This document shows, piece by piece, positions 1 to 5,407 of a DNA stretch of 5,407 nt. The DNA is from Desulfobulbaceae bacterium (lineage in GTDB: Bacteria; Desulfobacterota; Desulfobulbia; Desulfobulbales; Desulfobulbaceae): positions 1-5,407 of the forward strand of contig JALSNT010000038.1 in assembly GCA_026986885.1 (NCBI GenBank), written 5' to 3'. The notes beneath the pieces are model-generated. The model worked only from the letters and a program-made list of their open reading frames with translations. It searched no databases and was not told the origin of the DNA. Position numbers and translations under genes: made by a program. Position 1 is the first letter of the stretch. The number at the start of each line of letters is the position of its first letter.

Positions 1-286
1 CCTGGAAGAGATGAAGGATTCCGGCTGGTACCGCAAGGTGTGGCAGTCCTTTGCCGTGCTGCTGCCCATCCAGACCGTGGGGGTCATGGGTGACGGCCGC
101 ACCTACGAGCATGTGATCGCCATCCGCAGTGTGGACTCCCGCGATGCCATGACCGCCGACTGGTCCCAACTGCCCTATGACCTGCTGGGACGAATATCCA
201 CCCGCATTATCAACGAGGTTCGCGGCGTTAACAGGGTGGTCTATGATATTTCCTCCAAGCCGCCGGCAACCATTGAGTGGGAATAA
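1..286 (+). CDS. guaA: GMP synthase (glutamine-hydrolysing), C-terminal part
   Basis: This is the last 94 residues of cytoplasmic GMP synthase, which aminates XMP to GMP using ATP and ammonia from glutamine, the final step of guanine nucleotide synthesis. The gene starts before the window; the first complete codon is at base 2 and the stop is TAA at 284-286. Only the C-terminal dimerisation and XMP-binding domain is visible. It contains the family-typical stretches [24 protein letters not shown], and the near-invariant ending [18 protein letters not shown], whose Lys-Pro-Pro loop closes over XMP. The glutaminase and ATP-pyrophosphatase domains lie upstream and cannot be assessed. No clear intrinsic terminator follows, so read-through into the next gene is possible. 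Identification rests on the highly conserved C-terminus and is very secure. Confidence 0.97.
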
Positions 287-320
287 CTGTTCTGAAACGA
301 TCAGGACAGGTGCTAACGCT

Positions 321-338
321 GACTTTCGGCGCAAAGTC
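321..338 (+). other. Small inverted repeat after guaA
   Basis: GACTTT at 321-326 and AAAGTC at 333-338 form a perfect 6-bp stem with a 6-base loop. No T-run follows, so it does not qualify as an intrinsic terminator. It lies just upstream of a TATAAT box and could be an operator or simply chance. Confidence 0.25.
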
Positions 339-346
339 CAAACGAA

Positions 347-352
347 TATAAT
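347..352 (+). promoter_or_regulatory. Candidate -10 box for the NYN-domain gene
   Basis: A perfect TATAAT lies 19 bases before the ATG at 372, in the 85-base gap after guaA. The hexamer 17 bases upstream (TTTCGG, 324-329) is a poor -35, so the call rests mainly on the -10. If used, transcription would start near 359 and leave a very short leader carrying the ribosome site AGAGAAG (358-364). Confidence 0.3.
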
Positions 353-371
353 CTGACAGAGAAGTAAAAAA

Positions 372-1148
372 ATGTTGAAAACAGGCATCTATGTCGATGC
401 GGAAAACATCAAGATGAGCGGCGGCTACGGCATGCGCTACGACGTGCTGGTTAATCTTGCCGATGCCGGCAACTCGGCCATGCTGCGGGCCAACTGTTAC
501 CTGGCCGAAGATCGGGAGAGAACCCGTGCCGATACGGATTACCGGCAGAAGGTCTACAGCTATCACAACATCCTGCGGCAGTGCGGATTCAAGATTATCA
601 AGAAATATGTCCGCCGCTATCAGGACGAGGAGGGAAATATCACCACCAAGGCCAATGCCGACATGGATCTCGCCATTGACGCCCTCCTGCAGGCCCGCAA
701 CCTGGACCGAATCATCCTGCTGACCGGGGATGGCGACTTCATCCGCCTGGTAACGGCCCTGCAGAACATGGGTTGTCGGGTGGAAATCATCGGTTTTCAT
801 AATGTGAGCTTTGAGCTGCGTGAAGCTGCCGATTCTTATCTATCTGGTTTCCTGATCCCCGGACTGTTACCGATATACGGCACATCTCCTCACAATGATG
901 AACAGTGGCGGCGCGGCACTGTTATTCACTATAATCAGGATAAAGGCTTCGGCTTTTTTCGCTATTTTACCCTGGGGGCATCCGGCCTGCAGTCCAAGAG
1001 TGTTTTTTTTCATCTCTCCAAGTCTACCCTGGACGGGGACTTCCATTTTCAGGACAATCAGCGTATTTTTGAATTCCGTATCGTCGATAACCCCGCCAAT
1101 GAAAACCGTTCCGAGGCCTGGGATATACGCCTGCTCAAAGAGGGGTGA
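372..1148 (+). CDS. NYN-domain (LabA/DUF88-like) putative RNase fused to a cold-shock-like domain
   Basis: This 258-residue protein has no signal peptide or membrane segment and is probably cytoplasmic. Residues 1-160 are a NYN/PIN-like domain of the LabA/DUF88 type, with the expected acidic metal-binding residues: D9 in YVDAEN, D97/D99 in NADMDLAIDAL, D120 and D122 in TGDGDF, and a final D154. These domains are known or predicted metal-dependent RNases. Residues 180-256 resemble a cold-shock OB fold: RRGTVIHYNQDKGFGFF (RNP1-like, 191-196), VFFHLS (RNP2-like, 211-216), then NQRIFEFRIVDN and a terminal DIRLL strand. The inference is an RNase with its own RNA-binding module; the substrate is unknown. 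The ATG at 372 follows AGAGAAG by 7 bases. The stop overlaps a GTG codon in the frame of the ferredoxin that follows. A T8 run at 1003-1010 encodes the RNP2-like Phe residues. Confidence 0.9.
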   Translation: MLKTGIYVDAENIKMSGGYGMRYDVLVNLADAGNSAMLRANCYLAEDRERTRADTDYRQKVYSYHNILRQCGFKIIKKYVRRYQDEEGNITTKANADMDLAIDALLQARNLDRIILLTGDGDFIRLVTALQNMGCRVEIIGFHNVSFELREAADSYLSGFLIPGLLPIYGTSPHNDEQWRRGTVIHYNQDKGFGFFRYFTLGASGLQSKSVFFHLSKSTLDGDFHFQDNQRIFEFRIVDNPANENRSEAWDIRLLKEG

Positions 1149-1159
1149 TTAACCGGCAT

Positions 1160-1169
1160 AATAATTATT
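1160..1169. repeat. AT-rich perfect palindrome before the ferredoxin
   Basis: AATAATTATT is a perfect 10-bp palindrome in the 35-base gap between the NYN gene and the ferredoxin ATG at 1184. It may be part of a promoter or a protein site, but no matching -35/-10 pair could be assigned, and short AT palindromes arise easily by chance. Confidence 0.25.
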
Positions 1170-1183
1170 GGAATATACGAACA

Positions 1184-1369
1184 ATGTGGAAAATATCGGT
1201 AGACAGTGAAAAATGTACCGGCTGTGGTGAATGCGTGGAATCCTGCCCCGGTGAGGTGTATGATCTAATAGAAGAAAAGGCGGTGCCGGTAAACATTGAT
1301 GAATGCCACGGCTGTCATACCTGCGAGGCGCTCTGTGATGAGGATGCGTGCCATGTTGACGAAGACTGA
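1184..1369 (+). CDS. 2[4Fe-4S] ferredoxin-type small protein
   Basis: This is a 61-residue acidic electron-transfer protein of the bacterial 2[4Fe-4S] ferredoxin type. Cluster motif 1 is C11-x2-C14-x2-C17-x3-C21-P. Cluster motif 2 is C41-x2-C44-x2-C47-x3-C51, followed by Asp rather than the usual Pro, with an extra C56 nearby. It presumably shuttles electrons in the cytoplasm; no partner oxidoreductase is in the window. The ATG at 1184 gives MWKISVDSEKCTGC, a natural start just before the first cluster. An upstream in-frame GTG at 1145 overlaps the NYN stop (GTGA) and would add 13 residues, but those look non-conserved and that GTG has almost no room for a ribosome site. The ribosome site for 1184 is also weak (TGGA, 1169-1172). 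It lies in the same direction as the NYN gene and is probably co-transcribed. Confidence 0.88.
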   Translation: MWKISVDSEKCTGCGECVESCPGEVYDLIEEKAVPVNIDECHGCHTCEALCDEDACHVDED

Positions 1370-1493
1370 CACCTTGGGCATTGTAACCCGATCTGCAGGC
1401 CTCGGAGGCTCGTTCCTTACCTGTGCTGTCACATATGGCCCTAACTATAATGGAACAGCGCAAAGACAGCAGACCCTGCGAAATGAAAACCGC

Positions 1494-2852
1494 TCAATTC
1501 AGGACTTTTTTACGCAGCCGGGCGGCAAAAAAACCGTCAAGTCCCTGCTCCGGCGTCGGCTGAAAAAATCCGTCCGCATCTACCAGTAATTTTGCAGGTG
1601 ATGGTAAAAAGGCACCGGCATTTTCAAGATAATAATCAGGATGCCCGGCAAGAAATATCCTGATAACCTCGCTGTTTTCCTCCTCTTCCAGGGAACAGGT
1701 GGCATAGACGAGAACTCCATCATCGGCCAGCAGTAAGTCTGCCGTCGTCAGCAACTGCAACTGCTGTTCCTGCAATCCCTGCAGATCCTCCGGCGACCTG
1801 TTCCAGCGAATATCCGGCCGCCGACCAATCACCCCGGTACCGGAACAGGGGACATCGAGTAAAATTCCATCGAACAAACCCTCTGCTTCTGCGGCAAATG
1901 ATGCAATACTCATACGCCGGGTGGCGACTCCCGTAATTTGTAAACGACAGAGATTTTCCTGCAGCAGACAATATCGTCTTTTTTCAGGCTCTATGGCCAT
2001 CAAGGTAGCTTTTTTGGGCAGTAGTTCCGCCAGATGGGTCGTCTTTCCTCCCACACCGGCACAACCATCCAGGTATCGGCCACCACTTTTCATGGCAAGC
2101 AGACAGCCGGCCAGTTGTGCCGCCTCATCCTGAACCGTGAACAATCCATCGGCGTATCCCGGTAATCCTGAAACGTCTCCCCGATAATCCGGCAGTAAAA
2201 GGGCCGTACTGCTGAATCTTCCCCGTTCCACCCTGCTGATTTCCGCCAGCCTGGCTGCCAATTGTTTTTGGTCCGTCAACCCGGTATTGACCCGCAATGT
2301 TAACGGCGGGATTCTATTATTTGTCCGGCAAATGGCATGTGCCCTTTCTCTACCGAAATTCTGTTCCCATTTTCCCAGCAGCCATCGGGGATGATTAAGG
2401 ATCGGTTTGCCATTGACAAGCAGCTGGTCAGCAGTCGGCAGGGAAGATCGCTCCCTGGCCACACTGCGTAAAACTCCGTTGACAAATCGAACCAGCCAGA
2501 CTGGCTGTCTCCCTGCTTTAAATGCCCGCACGGTTTCGTTGACCGCCGCGGAAGGAGGTATCCGGTCCATGCACAGCAACTGATAGATACCGATTCGCAG
2601 GGCATTAAGGGTACGGACCCTCATACCGGCAACCGGATGACGCGAAAAACGGGCAATGATACAATCCAGATATTGCCGGCTGCGTAGAATACCAAATACC
2701 AGGGCTCCGGCTAACTGCCGGTCACGCTGATCAAGCCTGCATTCCCGGGATAAGCGCTCAAAAATCAAATTGACGGGAGCCCCTGTTTGCTGCAACTCAC
2801 ACAGGGTGTTGAGGGCAAGCAGGCGACTGGTTGCGCGGAGCGGGCGGGACAT
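1494..2852 (-). CDS. rsmB: 16S rRNA (cytosine(967)-C(5))-methyltransferase RsmB
   Basis: This 452-residue cytoplasmic enzyme uses SAM to methylate C967 (E. coli numbering) of 16S rRNA. Residues 1-140 form the NusB-like RNA-binding domain (SRLLALNTL, DRQLAGALVFGILR, and AVNETVRAFK near 103-112). The rest is the Rossmann methyltransferase. Motif I is LDGCAGVGGKT (261-271), the SAM-ribose acidic residue is E288 in IEPEKR, motif IV is DVPCSGTG (C336), and motif VI is ATCSLEEEENS (C386). C386 is expected to be the nucleophile and C336 the cysteine that assists release. The ending DGFFAARLRKK is typical, and the length matches the family. The start ATG at 2852-2850 is one base after the stop of the REC-GGDEF gene and has no visible Shine-Dalgarno, which suggests coupled translation. 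The gene converges with the ferredoxin; no clear terminator lies between them. Confidence 0.96.
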   Translation of the reverse strand: MSRPLRATSRLLALNTLCELQQTGAPVNLIFERLSRECRLDQRDRQLAGALVFGILRSRQYLDCIIARFSRHPVAGMRVRTLNALRIGIYQLLCMDRIPPSAAVNETVRAFKAGRQPVWLVRFVNGVLRSVARERSSLPTADQLLVNGKPILNHPRWLLGKWEQNFGRERAHAICRTNNRIPPLTLRVNTGLTDQKQLAARLAEISRVERGRFSSTALLLPDYRGDVSGLPGYADGLFTVQDEAAQLAGCLLAMKSGGRYLDGCAGVGGKTTHLAELLPKKATLMAIEPEKRRYCLLQENLCRLQITGVATRRMSIASFAAEAEGLFDGILLDVPCSGTGVIGRRPDIRWNRSPEDLQGLQEQQLQLLTTADLLLADDGVLVYATCSLEEEENSEVIRIFLAGHPDYYLENAGAFLPSPAKLLVDADGFFQPTPEQGLDGFFAARLRKKVLN

Positions 2853-2853
2853 A

Positions 2854-3783
2854 TCAGCGAAAACTGCCGACAGCGTTTTTCCCCTGTTTCTTTACCTCAA
2901 ACAGGGCGTGGTCCGCTGCCGCCAGCAGGTCGGTAAGGGTTTGCGCATCTTCAGGGAAGGTGGCAACTCCGCAAGAAACGGTGATATGAATGGATAAATC
3001 CATGGTTGATAAAAAGCTGGTCTGTTCAACGGCCCGGCGAATACGTTCCGCCACTTGCATTCCCTGGTTGTGATCATAGCCGGCAAGCACGATAACAAAC
3101 TCGTCACCGCCGTAGCTGACACCATAACACCCCTCCGGCAGAACACTGCGAACAACATCCGCCAGTTCCGCCAGATTGCGTGAACCGTTAAGATGGCCGT
3201 AGGTATCGACAACGTATTTAAAATTATCAATATCCATGAAAATAACGGAAAGCGGACGGGTACGATGCATGTCGAGCTGACCCTGCAGGGTCTGATACAA
3301 ATAGCGGGTATTATAAAATCCGGTCAGATCATCGCGCAGGGACAGTTCACGGTACCTGGCCTCGCTTGCCTTCAGCTCCTGCTGCGTTCGGCGCAGAGCA
3401 AGATGGGTACGGACCCTGGCAAGCAGTTCAGCCCTGGTGGAAGGTTTGACCACATAATCCTGACCGCCGGCGGCAAAACCGGCAAGGATATCTTTTTTAT
3501 CATTACGTGAGGTGACAAAGAGAACAGGTATATCGGCATACCGGGGATCATTCTTCAGCTTCCGGCAGACATCAAATCCGGACATCTTCGGCAGCTCGAC
3601 ATCAAGCAAAACAAGATCGGGAACAATGGAAGGCAGGAGATTGAGAACGGATTCCCCGTCCTGCACCCCGGCTACCCGATATCCTTCCCTGGTGAAAAGC
3701 TCATTGAGCAACTTCAGGGTTACCGGACTGTCATCGGCAATCAAAATAACCGATTTCTTAACTGTATCTTCCTGTTTTTTCAT
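2854..3783 (-). CDS. REC-GGDEF response regulator, candidate Hypr-type (cGAMP/c-di-GMP) dinucleotide cyclase
   Basis: This 309-residue cytoplasmic protein begins with a receiver domain (about 11-127): acidic pair D17/D18, phospho-acceptor D61 in LLDVELP, T91 and K113. A helical, coiled-coil-like linker follows (about 128-148), then a GGDEF domain (149-309) with DDLTGFYNTR (151-160), metal-binding D184 in FMDIDNFK, and YGGDEF (224-229) intact. Phosphorylation by an unseen histidine kinase would be expected to control dimerisation and cyclase activity. Aligning DTYGH (193-197) with PleD, the guanine-contacting Asn is V192 and the Asp is S201. An Asp-to-Ser change at that position defines Hypr enzymes that make 3',3'-cGAMP. 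The RxxD inhibitory site is replaced by PEGC (216-219). The ATG at 3783-3781 is the only plausible start, preceded by GGTGGG very close by. The stop is one base from rsmB. REC-GGDEF is certain; the product is inferred. Confidence 0.93.
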   Translation of the reverse strand: MKKQEDTVKKSVILIADDSPVTLKLLNELFTREGYRVAGVQDGESVLNLLPSIVPDLVLLDVELPKMSGFDVCRKLKNDPRYADIPVLFVTSRNDKKDILAGFAAGGQDYVVKPSTRAELLARVRTHLALRRTQQELKASEARYRELSLRDDLTGFYNTRYLYQTLQGQLDMHRTRPLSVIFMDIDNFKYVVDTYGHLNGSRNLAELADVVRSVLPEGCYGVSYGGDEFVIVLAGYDHNQGMQVAERIRRAVEQTSFLSTMDLSIHITVSCGVATFPEDAQTLTDLLAAADHALFEVKKQGKNAVGSFR

Positions 3784-3807
3784 CCCACCACAAAATAACC
3801 GATCATG

Positions 3808-3847
3808 GGTAACCGTCGACGCACGAGGGAGCGCGCCAATGGCTACC
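3808..3847 (-). promoter_or_regulatory. Predicted two-part hairpin in the leader of the REC-GGDEF gene
   Basis: In the minus-strand transcript, GGTAGCC (3847-3841) pairs with GGTTACC (3814-3808) and inside it GCGCG (3836-3832) pairs with CGTGC (3825-3821) around a CTCCCT loop. Each stem has one G·U pair that becomes an A·C mismatch in the plus-strand RNA, so the fold is better in the direction of the regulator gene. It ends 24 bases before the ATG. No known riboswitch consensus was recognised in it. Confidence 0.4.
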
Positions 3848-3850
3848 TAA

Positions 3851-3865
3851 ATTGAACGTTTCAAT
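3851..3865. promoter_or_regulatory. 15-bp dyad, possible operator in the divergent region
   Basis: ATTGAA (3851-3856) and TTCAAT (3860-3865) form a perfect 6-bp inverted repeat around CGT, between the divergently transcribed REC-GGDEF gene and aapJ. It lies downstream of the candidate minus-strand promoter, where a repressor could act, and upstream of the candidate aapJ promoter. No specific regulator is identified. Confidence 0.35.
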
Positions 3866-3880
3866 TCTGGAAAAACCCGG

Positions 3881-3911
3881 TAGACTTTTTGCCCTTTTCT
3901 GTTATTATACT
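3881..3911 (+). promoter_or_regulatory. Candidate promoter for aapJ
   Basis: TAGACT (3881-3886, four of six matches to the -35 consensus) is 16 bases from TATTAT (3903-3908), which overlaps TATACT (3906-3911). The aapJ ATG is about 75 bases further on. An alternative nearer the gene is TTGCAA (3936-3941) with TAGATT (3958-3963), also 16 bases apart. Neither is strong enough to choose between them from sequence alone. Confidence 0.3.
3904..3909 (-). promoter_or_regulatory. Candidate -10 box for the REC-GGDEF/rsmB operon
   Basis: The minus strand reads a perfect TATAAT here, overlapping the plus-strand -10 candidate. No good -35 is seen at the usual distance. Use of this box would give a leader of roughly 110 bases that contains both the 3851-3865 dyad and the 3808-3847 hairpin. 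Confidence 0.33.
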
Positions 3912-3928
3912 CAGCTTATTGGAAACAG

Positions 3929-3944
3929 CCATTCTTTGCAATGG
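3929..3944. repeat. Short inverted repeat upstream of aapJ
   Basis: CCATT (3929-3933) and AATGG (3940-3944) flank a 6-base loop. It overlaps the alternative -35 (TTGCAA, 3936-3941), so it could be an operator or a leader hairpin, but it is short enough to be chance. Confidence 0.22.
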
Positions 3945-3973
3945 TAACTTAGTGAAATAGATTAAATAAGATC

Positions 3974-3979
3974 GAGGAG
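3974..3979 (+). promoter_or_regulatory. Strong ribosome binding site of aapJ
   Basis: GAGGAG lies 5 bases before the ATG at 3985. It is the best Shine-Dalgarno in the window and fixes the aapJ start. It fits a highly translated periplasmic binding protein. Confidence 0.8.
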
Positions 3980-3984
3980 AACCG

Positions 3985-4998
3985 ATGAAAAAACTATCCT
4001 GTATCATGGGGGCCGTCCTGTTGATGATTTCCACCTCGCCGGCGTTTGCTTCCACTCTGGACGAAGTTCAGAAACGTGATGTCCTGCAATGCGGTGTTTC
4101 CACAGGGCTGCCGGGATTCTCCAATCCCGATGAAAAGGGAAACTGGACAGGGCTGGATGTTGATGCCTGCCGTGCCGTTGCTGCTGCTGTTCTGCACGAT
4201 GCCAACAAGGTCAAATTTATCCCCTTAACGGCAAAGGAACGATTTACTGCCCTGCAGTCCGGAGAAATCGACATCCTTTCCCGAAATACCACCTGGACTC
4301 TCACCCGTGATACCTCCCTGGGATTAAACTTTACCCATACTGATTATTATGATGGCCAGGGCTTTATGGTCTCCAAAAAGCTTGGCGTTAAAAGTGCCAA
4401 AGAACTTGACGGCGCCGCCATCTGCATCCAGGCGGGCACTACAACCGAGCTGAATCTGGCCGATTATTTCAAACAGAATAACATGAAATATCAAGCCGTC
4501 GTCTTTGATACCTCAGACCAGAGCGTCAAGGGGTTTGAAGCCGGTCGCTGTGACGTATTGACCTCCGACCAGTCCCAGTTGTATGGATTGCGCATCAAAT
4601 TAGCCAACCCCGAAAATGCCGTTGTTCTTCCGGAAATCATCTCCAAGGAACCCCTGGGTCCCGTCGTTCGCCAGGGCGATGACGGTTGGTTTAATATTGT
4701 TAAATGGTCGATGTTTGCCATGATCAACGCCGAGGAATTAGGTGTCACTTCCAAGAATGTTGACGAGATGAAAAAATCCAAGAACCCCGCCATCCGGCGT
4801 CTGCTTGGCCTGGAAGGCATAGCGGGCAAGGGGATGAATCTCTCCGACGACTGGGCTTACCAGATTATCAAGCAGGTCGGCAATTACGGCGAAATGTTTA
4901 AACGCAACGTGGGCCAGGATTCTCCGCTGAAAATTAAACGGGGCCTGAACGCATTATGGAACAAAGGCGGCATCCAGTACGCCCCGCCTATCCGCTGA
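3985..4998 (+). CDS. aapJ: General L-amino acid ABC transporter, periplasmic substrate-binding protein
   Basis: This is the 337-residue solute-binding component of an Aap/Bzt-type importer for polar and other L-amino acids. Residues 1-22 are a Sec signal peptide (MKK, hydrophobic core, cleavage expected after AFA at 20-22), so the mature protein is periplasmic. AapJ-type signatures run throughout: LQCGVSTGLPGFSNPDEKG (35-53), GLDVDACRAVAAAV (56-69), SRNTTWTLTRD (99-109), YYDGQGFMVS (121-130), QAGTTTELNLADYF (149-162), GRCDVLTSDQS (187-197), LPEIISKEPLGPVVRQGDD (215-233), VGNYGEMF (298-305) and the ending GGIQYAPPIR. The Arg in the TTWTLTRD segment is the likely ligand carboxylate contact by family analogy. 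Length is close to the usual 340. It is followed by a terminator and then aapQ. The exact amino-acid range cannot be read from sequence. Confidence 0.95.
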   Translation: MKKLSCIMGAVLLMISTSPAFASTLDEVQKRDVLQCGVSTGLPGFSNPDEKGNWTGLDVDACRAVAAAVLHDANKVKFIPLTAKERFTALQSGEIDILSRNTTWTLTRDTSLGLNFTHTDYYDGQGFMVSKKLGVKSAKELDGAAICIQAGTTTELNLADYFKQNNMKYQAVVFDTSDQSVKGFEAGRCDVLTSDQSQLYGLRIKLANPENAVVLPEIISKEPLGPVVRQGDDGWFNIVKWSMFAMINAEELGVTSKNVDEMKKSKNPAIRRLLGLEGIAGKGMNLSDDWAYQIIKQVGNYGEMFKRNVGQDSPLKIKRGLNALWNKGGIQYAPPIR

Positions 4999-5025
4999 TA
5001 TTTTCCTGTTTAGGGACCGATTCGC

Positions 5026-5060
5026 AGAGCGCCCTGAACCGGGCGCTCTTCTTCTTTTTT
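5026..5060 (+). terminator. Strong intrinsic terminator between aapJ and aapQ
   Basis: A perfect 9-bp GC-rich stem, AGAGCGCCC (5026-5034) with GGGCGCTCT (5041-5049), encloses a 6-base loop and is followed by a pyrimidine tail rich in T ending in T6 (5050-5060). It lies 28 bases after the aapJ stop. Partial termination here would give more binding protein than permease, a common arrangement in ABC importer operons. Confidence 0.88.
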
Positions 5061-5062
5061 CA

Positions 5063-5071
5063 TATTATACT
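5063..5071 (+). promoter_or_regulatory. Possible -10 element (TATTATACT) before aapQ
   Basis: TATTATACT is identical to the 9-mer at 3903-3911 upstream of aapJ. It follows the terminator tail directly. No convincing -35 is seen, since the terminator stem occupies that position. It might restart transcription into aapQ, or the match may reflect AT-richness. Confidence 0.2.
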
Positions 5072-5076
5072 TTTTA

Positions 5077-5093
5077 TCACCGCACAGCGGTGA
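5077..5093 (+). other. Compact hairpin in the aapQ leader
   Basis: TCACCGC (5077-5083) and GCGGTGA (5087-5093) form a perfect 7-bp stem with an ACA loop, 26 bases before the aapQ ATG. There is no T-run after it, so it is not a terminator. It could protect the 5' end of a processed or re-initiated aapQ message, or influence translation. Confidence 0.42.
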
Positions 5094-5119
5094 GTCTAAT
5101 CTGGTAGAGTACGCCCATA

Positions 5120-5407
5120 ATGGCAAAAGATGAACTTCCGCAAAAAACCGCCTGGTGGAACAATGCCCAAAACCGGGCACTACTCTTCCAGATCCTGCTG
5201 GCCATAGGCGTCAGTGTTTTTTTTGCTTTTATTGCCGACAACACAGTCCACAACCTTCAACAACGAGGAATTTCTACCGGTTTTGCCTTTCTCAAGCAGA
5301 AAGCCGGCTTTGGTATTATTCAACATCTCATCCCCTATACGGAAAATAATACCTACGGCCGTACGTTTATTGTCGGTCTCCTCAACACTGTTCTGGTCTC
5401 TGTCCTT
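5120..5407 (+). CDS. aapQ: General L-amino acid ABC transporter, permease, N-terminal part
   Basis: These are the first 96 residues of an inner-membrane permease of the AapQ/BztB type; the gene runs past the window end. AapQ pairs with a second permease (AapM) and an ATPase (AapP), expected downstream, to import amino acids delivered by AapJ. Visible features are a hydrophilic N-terminus, a first membrane segment at about 20-40 (LLFQILLAIGVSVFFAFIA), the characteristic periplasmic stretch DNTVHNLQQRGISTGFAFL (40-58), AGFGIIQHLIPYTENNTYGRTF (62-83), and the start of a second membrane segment (VGLLNTVLVSVL, 85-96). The ATG at 5120 gives MAKDELPQKT; an upstream GGTAGAG (5103-5109) is a weak, rather distant ribosome site. 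The family is usually about 400 residues, so roughly three quarters of the gene is missing. Confidence 0.93.
   Translation, partial: MAKDELPQKTAWWNNAQNRALLFQILLAIGVSVFFAFIADNTVHNLQQRGISTGFAFLKQKAGFGIIQHLIPYTENNTYGRTFIVGLLNTVLVSVL

Follow-up and report, generated by a model that had tools for sequence, protein, structure and literature searches.

A receiver-GGDEF protein of a Desulfobulbaceae bacterium from a Val/Ser lineage with a rebuilt guanine pocket, a candidate cyclic GMP-AMP synthase

Serine at the position of PleD Asp344 is the usual flag for GGDEF proteins that make 3',3'-cyclic GMP-AMP (cGAMP). In PleD itself, guanine is bound by N335 and D344 (PMC7288161), and a cross-dimer Arg, which is R537 in an Idiomarina enzyme and R147 in DgcR, probably points at the base held by the other subunit (PMC6456294, PMC8041772). 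GacA (GSU1658 / Gmet_1914, structure 6D9M), a Ser-type or Hypr enzyme of Geobacter, is restrained by cyclic di-GMP (c-di-GMP) through its I-site (R393; PMC6456294). Bd0367 of Bdellovibrio bacteriovorus likewise has Ser (S214) at the selectivity position and a receiver domain, and makes cGAMP as well as c-di-GMP (PMC9140294). Here we describe a receiver-GGDEF protein encoded in a 5,407-nucleotide stretch (the window) from a Desulfobulbaceae bacterium (GCA_026986885.1, contig JALSNT010000038.1, positions 1 to 5,407), which belongs to a conserved, apparently uncharacterised branch of Hypr-type GGDEF proteins.

Base pocket of the window protein

Pfam places a Response_reg domain at residues 13-125 and a GGDEF domain at residues 149-303 of the 309-residue protein, and the AlphaFold model has a mean pLDDT (predicted local distance difference test) of 91.3. 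We call domains with Val192 and Ser201 V/S, and GacA-type domains (Asn with Ser, Gly or Thr) N/S. The relevant parts of the gene are listed below; codon coordinates apart from that of S201 were calculated from residue numbers in the open reading frame.

2854..3783, minus strand: receiver-GGDEF protein, V/S type, 309 aa (open reading frame call, Pfam domains, homologue search)
3601..3603, minus strand: codon of receiver Asp61, the expected phosphorylation site (residue number; Asp in 119/120 homologues)
3307..3309, minus strand: codon of Thr159, at GmGacA Tyr304 and the cross-dimer Arg of Asp-type cyclases (residue number)
3208..3210, minus strand: codon of Val192, at PleD Asn335 and GmGacA Asn339 (residue number, alignment)
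3181..3183, minus strand: codon of Ser201, at PleD Asp344 and GmGacA Ser348 (TGA on the plus strand, TCA on the minus strand; alignment)
3097..3111, minus strand: GGDEF motif, residues 225-229 (residue number)

From the metal-binding Asp184 to S201, a span that includes DTYGH (residues 193-197), the protein aligns without gaps to PleD, WspR, 3ign and GmGacA. A sequence-only reading of this DNA had placed a Ser at the PleD Asp344 position, and this alignment, together with Ser in 240/240 homologues, bears it out. YGGDEF and DxLTGFYN are likewise intact in the open reading frame, as is the metal Asp, in line with that reading, and the metal and phosphate residues D184, E228 and K298 are all present. 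Several changes come in addition to the one flagged earlier: V192 stands at PleD N335, the second guanine contact, so that neither canonical contact is left; T159 replaces the cross-dimer Arg; S223 is found where PleD and GacA have an Arg before the motif; and the RxxD I-site is absent, with P216 and C219 at its positions. All three known guanine-selecting side chains are therefore replaced, Asp by S201, Asn by V192 and the cross-dimer Arg by T159. Hypr-type enzymes are recognised by Ser or Thr at the D344 position and, in the Goldilocks model (PMC6456294), by GGDE[F/Y] rather than GGEE[F/Y]; the window protein has S201 and GGDEF.

GacA shares with the window protein the Ser, GGDEF instead of GGEEF, the receiver domain and the lack of a cross-dimer Arg (Tyr304 in GmGacA, T159 here), but retains the RxxD I-site. 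Open frames of GacA orthologues are 356-490 aa long, compared with 309 aa for the window protein. We rejected the window protein as a GacA orthologue, since its domain is 40% identical to that of GmGacA, lacks the Asn339 contact and RxxD, and falls on a separate V/S branch. Bd0367, compared by its published description, has a conserved I-site (R260), unlike the window protein (PMC9140294). PleD and DgcR have the same receiver-coil-GGDEF plan and match the window protein well over the full length in both sequence and structure. None of PleD's N335, D344, cross-dimer Arg, I-site and Arg ahead of the motif is found in the window protein, and the two domains are 33% identical. The literature searched, whose scope did not extend to the enzymes assayed in 2016, yielded no assayed enzyme with a V/S pocket and no report on the V/S branch.

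Conservation and descent of the V/S lineage

Two sets of homologues were compared, the top 120 among the window protein's 1146 homologues (list 1) and the best 120 of 2445 matches to the GGDEF part of a Desulfonema magnum relative (list 2). T159, V192, S201, D227, the metal ligand D184 and K298 are identical in 240/240 of these sequences and E228 in 239/240, while residue 223 is Ser in list 1 and Ala in list 2. Because Ser occurs in 120/120 of each list, S201 is beyond chance or sequencing error. In list 1, the position of the I-site Arg is Pro in 118/120 and the receiver Asp61 is retained in 119/120; the latter makes control through the receiver domain, as suggested in the sequence-only reading, plausible.

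A first comparison of 279 V/S domains (240 of them selected, from lists 1 and 2) with 38 N/S and 30 Asp-type domains gave T159, Y163, V192, G221 and F295 as V/S-specific residues; these domains have lost an Asn (position 192), an Asp (219), an Arg (223) and a Tyr (295). Position 192 is Val in 279/279 V/S domains and Asn in 68/68 others. We then compared a wider sample of 61 V/S, 50 N/S and 79 Asp-type rows, in which some genes stand twice (e.g. L033, L433, L445) and the Asp-type rows are a limited sample drawn from matches to the window protein or GacA plus three solved structures. V192 and S201 are present in 61/61 V/S rows by definition, and Asn occupies position 192 in 50/50 N/S rows. Thr159 is found in 55/61 V/S rows and Phe295 in 58/61, with Tyr at the latter position in 50/50 N/S rows. 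Arg223 remains in 9/61 V/S rows vs. 50/50 N/S and 79/79 Asp-type rows, and a complete RxxD in 2/61 vs. 49/50 and 70/79. Asp in the GGDEF motif is found in 61/61 V/S and 50/50 N/S rows but in only 14/79 Asp-type rows. A model of DgcR suggests that the Tyr at the place of F295 could interact with an Asp from the partner subunit (PMC8041772), and the V/S changes seem to gather around the base and the dimer face.

Trees were built with the signature columns removed (seven in the 107-domain tree). Row L047 (Cys/Asp) was left out of both trees, and L447 (partial, with one stop) out of the 190-row tree. In the 107-domain tree, V/S domains form one clade (99/96) and N/S domains another (98/85), and the two stand together against the Asp-type (98/98). 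In a quick 190-row tree, the Ser-type rows form one group of 108 rows (Shimodaira-Hasegawa-like approximate likelihood ratio test, SH-aLRT, 99), containing a V/S branch of 60 rows (89) that includes eight rows retaining Arg at 223. There, one V/S row that also retains this Arg (L460) falls among the N/S rows, and N/S is not one clade; a single V/S clade is not rejected by an approximately unbiased (AU) test on this set (p 0.941). Both trees thus group the V/S lineage with GacA-type enzymes and apart from the Asp-type, and common descent of the two, separate from Asp-type cyclases, is supported. These results suggest an order of change from Asp-type to Ser-type with Asn, then Ser-type with Val, and then loss of the Arg.

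Three GGDEF domains with Thr at the D344 position (L291, L310 and L311, from genomes G010, G011 and G012) fall outside the Ser-type group of the 190-row tree, so Ser and Thr types may have arisen more than once. They keep the Asn, have Met at the cross-dimer Arg and have intact GGDEF and RxxD motifs; at the Thr site, L310 and L311 read DADNLKGVNDTYGHDAGT. Seven further GacA-like GGDEF domains (L207, L208, L217, L219, L221, L227, L061) have Gly at the D344 position and keep both Asn and the I-site.

Carrier genomes, riboswitches and gene neighbourhood

The closest relatives of the window protein are in metagenome-assembled genomes (MAGs) of Desulfobulbaceae, and V/S domains also occur in Desulfobacterales, one Calditrichota MAG (L038) and one Spirochaetota MAG (L039). 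Cultured species with a V/S homologue include Desulfonema magnum (L030) and Desulfolithobacter dissulfuricans (P0053). At E <= 1e-31, 58 genomes sampled from the order gave five matches, four of them V/S and one Asp-type. At E <= 1e-33, 48/297 genomes of the phylum have a match, and the 30 loci read among those 48 comprise 9 N/S and 21 V/S loci, one of the latter being partial and interrupted by a stop codon. We examined 32 relatives with the gene as carrier genomes (G001-G032), the window's own genome not being among them. A single close V/S copy is present in every genome from G001 to G024, joined in G024 by another that is more distant, and a first look found 8-34 candidate GGDEF places per carrier genome. 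A separate GacA gene was not found at the loci read: the best GacA-domain match reaches 46% identity in G001-G024, where 30 loci were read and 62 matches lie at E <= 1e-30, and 45% in G025-G032 (21 matches, 21 read). These 51 best GacA-like loci are 45 Asp-type, 4 V/S and 2 Thr-type (L310, L311). A DAC-type synthase gene for cyclic di-AMP (c-di-AMP) is present in 23/24 carriers.

The sequence-only reading had pointed to GEMM-Ib riboswitches as a sign of cGAMP signalling in the host. A20 can be taken as cGAMP-type, given that A14 is the last base of J1/2 in the cGAMP riboswitch and that a G20A GEMM-I was crystallised with cGAMP (PMC6274999). Within each RF01051 match, the 11th position was taken to be base 20, a numbering assigned in this analysis, and for 60 additional matches the strand was picked by motif score. 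RF01051 has 104 matches in 25/32 carrier genomes, and all 104 were read: 101 are G20 and 3 are A20 (two in G027, and one weak 35.5-bit match in G021). As a positive control we used the ten genomes with the best GacA matches among the 297 of the phylum (57-74% identical to GmGacA; G152 and G116 have Gly instead of Ser at the selectivity position). Eight of these ten have 87 matches, and the 63 read are 37 A20, mostly within AATACTAAACC, 25 G20 and 1 C20. In the order sample, 89/132 matches were read as 84 G20 and 5 A20, all five A20 being in genomes without a V/S match. The proposed GEMM-Ib partner is therefore not borne out in the relatives: GacA genomes have A20 riboswitches while V/S carriers have hardly any, and with 3/104 in carriers against 37/63 in genomes with GacA orthologues, the V/S gene does not travel with cGAMP-type riboswitches. 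The V/S product could possibly have a protein receiver.

A riboswitch adjoining the GGDEF gene was also considered and rejected, as the window and L001-L013 (14 sources) gave no Rfam match at gathering score. Contig C102 of G027 has four tandem GEMM-I riboswitches at 7438-7794 (L111, L084, L106), with A, G, G and A at base 20, on the strand of a 412-residue open frame resembling a secreted lipase or hydrolase. In this genome, which has a V/S GGDEF, the array could possibly take a mixed input of cGAMP and c-di-GMP.

The genes flanking the GGDEF gene are as follows.

1494..2852, minus strand: rsmB, 16S rRNA m5C967 methyltransferase (same-order neighbour in 14 loci)
3985..4998, plus strand: amino-acid-type solute-binding protein, SBP_bac_3 (divergently oriented, next to the gene in those 14 loci)

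The start of rsmB lies one base past the GGDEF stop codon, and the order rsmB, GGDEF gene and divergent upstream solute-binding-protein gene is kept in 14/46 loci. We rejected a conserved partner gene; rsmB has no known functional link, and the gene order is no clue to function. Inspection by eye of 23/24 loci of distant relatives (L018 yielded no open reading frame) showed no common neighbour. The remainder of the window holds, on the plus strand, a GMP synthase gene (2-286), just past its end an NYN-domain protein (372-1148) with a weak, below-cut-off C-terminal cold-shock-like match, and a small 61-aa ferredoxin that has a match to a 4Fe-4S dicluster (1184-1369).

Likely product and alternative readings

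We regard it as about an even call that the window protein is an active, receiver-controlled Ser-type (Hypr) dinucleotide cyclase of a separate V/S branch with a rebuilt base pocket, and with cGAMP as its likeliest main product. By analogy with PleD or DgcR, two GGDEF domains would be brought into contact once Asp61 is phosphorylated. With the guanine-selecting side chains replaced, ATP would be accepted as well as GTP, and cGAMP would predominate, while c-di-GMP or c-di-AMP could arise as minor products or in its stead. Since RxxD is absent, the enzyme should be free of restraint by c-di-GMP at the primary I-site, unlike GacA. Catalysis is likely because the metal and phosphate residues are strictly kept, and relaxed or altered base choice is likely because the base selectors are gone. 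Two points make cGAMP the best guess: it is made by GacA, the closest characterised enzyme, and Hypr enzymes whose cross-dimer residue is Tyr, Ser, Ala or Gln gave mainly cGAMP (PMC6456294). From its sequence, the protein is likely a promiscuous, probably cGAMP-making cyclase. Several observations weigh against this. GacA keeps Asn339 on the base and the Arg before YGGDEF, where the window protein has V192 and S223; N335 and D344 are termed essential in ordinary GGDEF domains (PMC7288161); Thr is missing from the cross-dimer residues of assayed enzymes listed in PMC6456294; and the Tyr near the dimer face is lost (F295). With G20 in nearly all carrier riboswitches and A20 in so few, the known cGAMP receiver seems to be missing from the carriers as well. 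The earlier Hypr assignment is supported by Ser201, GGDEF, the absent cross-dimer Arg and the grouping with GacA, whereas the protein is not a GacA orthologue and lacks the Asn and the I-site. A cGAMP branch in the host, also suggested earlier, may exist, its proposed GEMM-Ib receiver being the part that found no support in the relatives.

The G20 riboswitches would fit a plain diguanylate cyclase, which would make essentially only c-di-GMP in the cell and feed these riboswitches and other c-di-GMP receptors. A Ser by itself is not enough to impose cGAMP synthesis, as an Asp-to-Ser variant of GSU3350 remained a pure diguanylate cyclase (PMC6456294). Yet Asn, Asp and the cross-dimer Arg are all replaced throughout lists 1 and 2, S347D-type changes make GacA a diguanylate cyclase, so that Asp favours GTP, and the hosts already have several to many Asp-type GGDEF proteins; we consider this reading unlikely. 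Without the Asn that recognises the edge of the guanine, the enzyme could instead have shifted further, to an ATP preference or a similar state yielding c-di-AMP, or cGAMP with little c-di-GMP. The invariant Val192 of the largely selected V/S set, against Asn in all other domains, speaks for such a shift, and the V/S-specific Y163 and F295 go along with it, which gives the change the look of a coordinated rebuild; but a second source of c-di-AMP is not needed where nearly every carrier has a DAC-type gene, and we think this rather improbable.

It is similarly doubtful that the protein is a former cyclase, now a nucleotide-binding or signalling domain that senses nucleoside triphosphates or acts via protein contacts. 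Degenerate GGDEF domains with sensor roles are on record (PMC12943098, PMC7288161), and the residues reported as essential, together with the Arg before the motif, are gone. A non-catalytic domain, though, need not keep D184, D227, E228 and K298 in 240, 240, 239 and 240 of 240 homologues. A bolder proposal, to which we give a small share of our confidence, is that the V/S branch has left guanine recognition: a pocket of Ser, Val, Thr, Tyr163 and Phe295 would prefer ATP or pair purines in a new way. Not subject to I-site control, such an enzyme would make c-di-AMP or cGAMP but hardly any c-di-GMP, and its product would be read by a non-GEMM receiver.

The V/S lineage is a natural branch that carries the Ser flag but has also lost the second base contact, the product-inhibition site and the cross-dimer Arg. 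It has apparent intermediates in sequence, and it bears on whether the one-residue rule predicts product. If cGAMP or c-di-AMP is made, GGDEF signalling by molecules other than c-di-GMP would extend to groups of sulphate reducers nearly without the Geobacter-type riboswitch, and since these groups hardly carry it, another receiver would have to exist.
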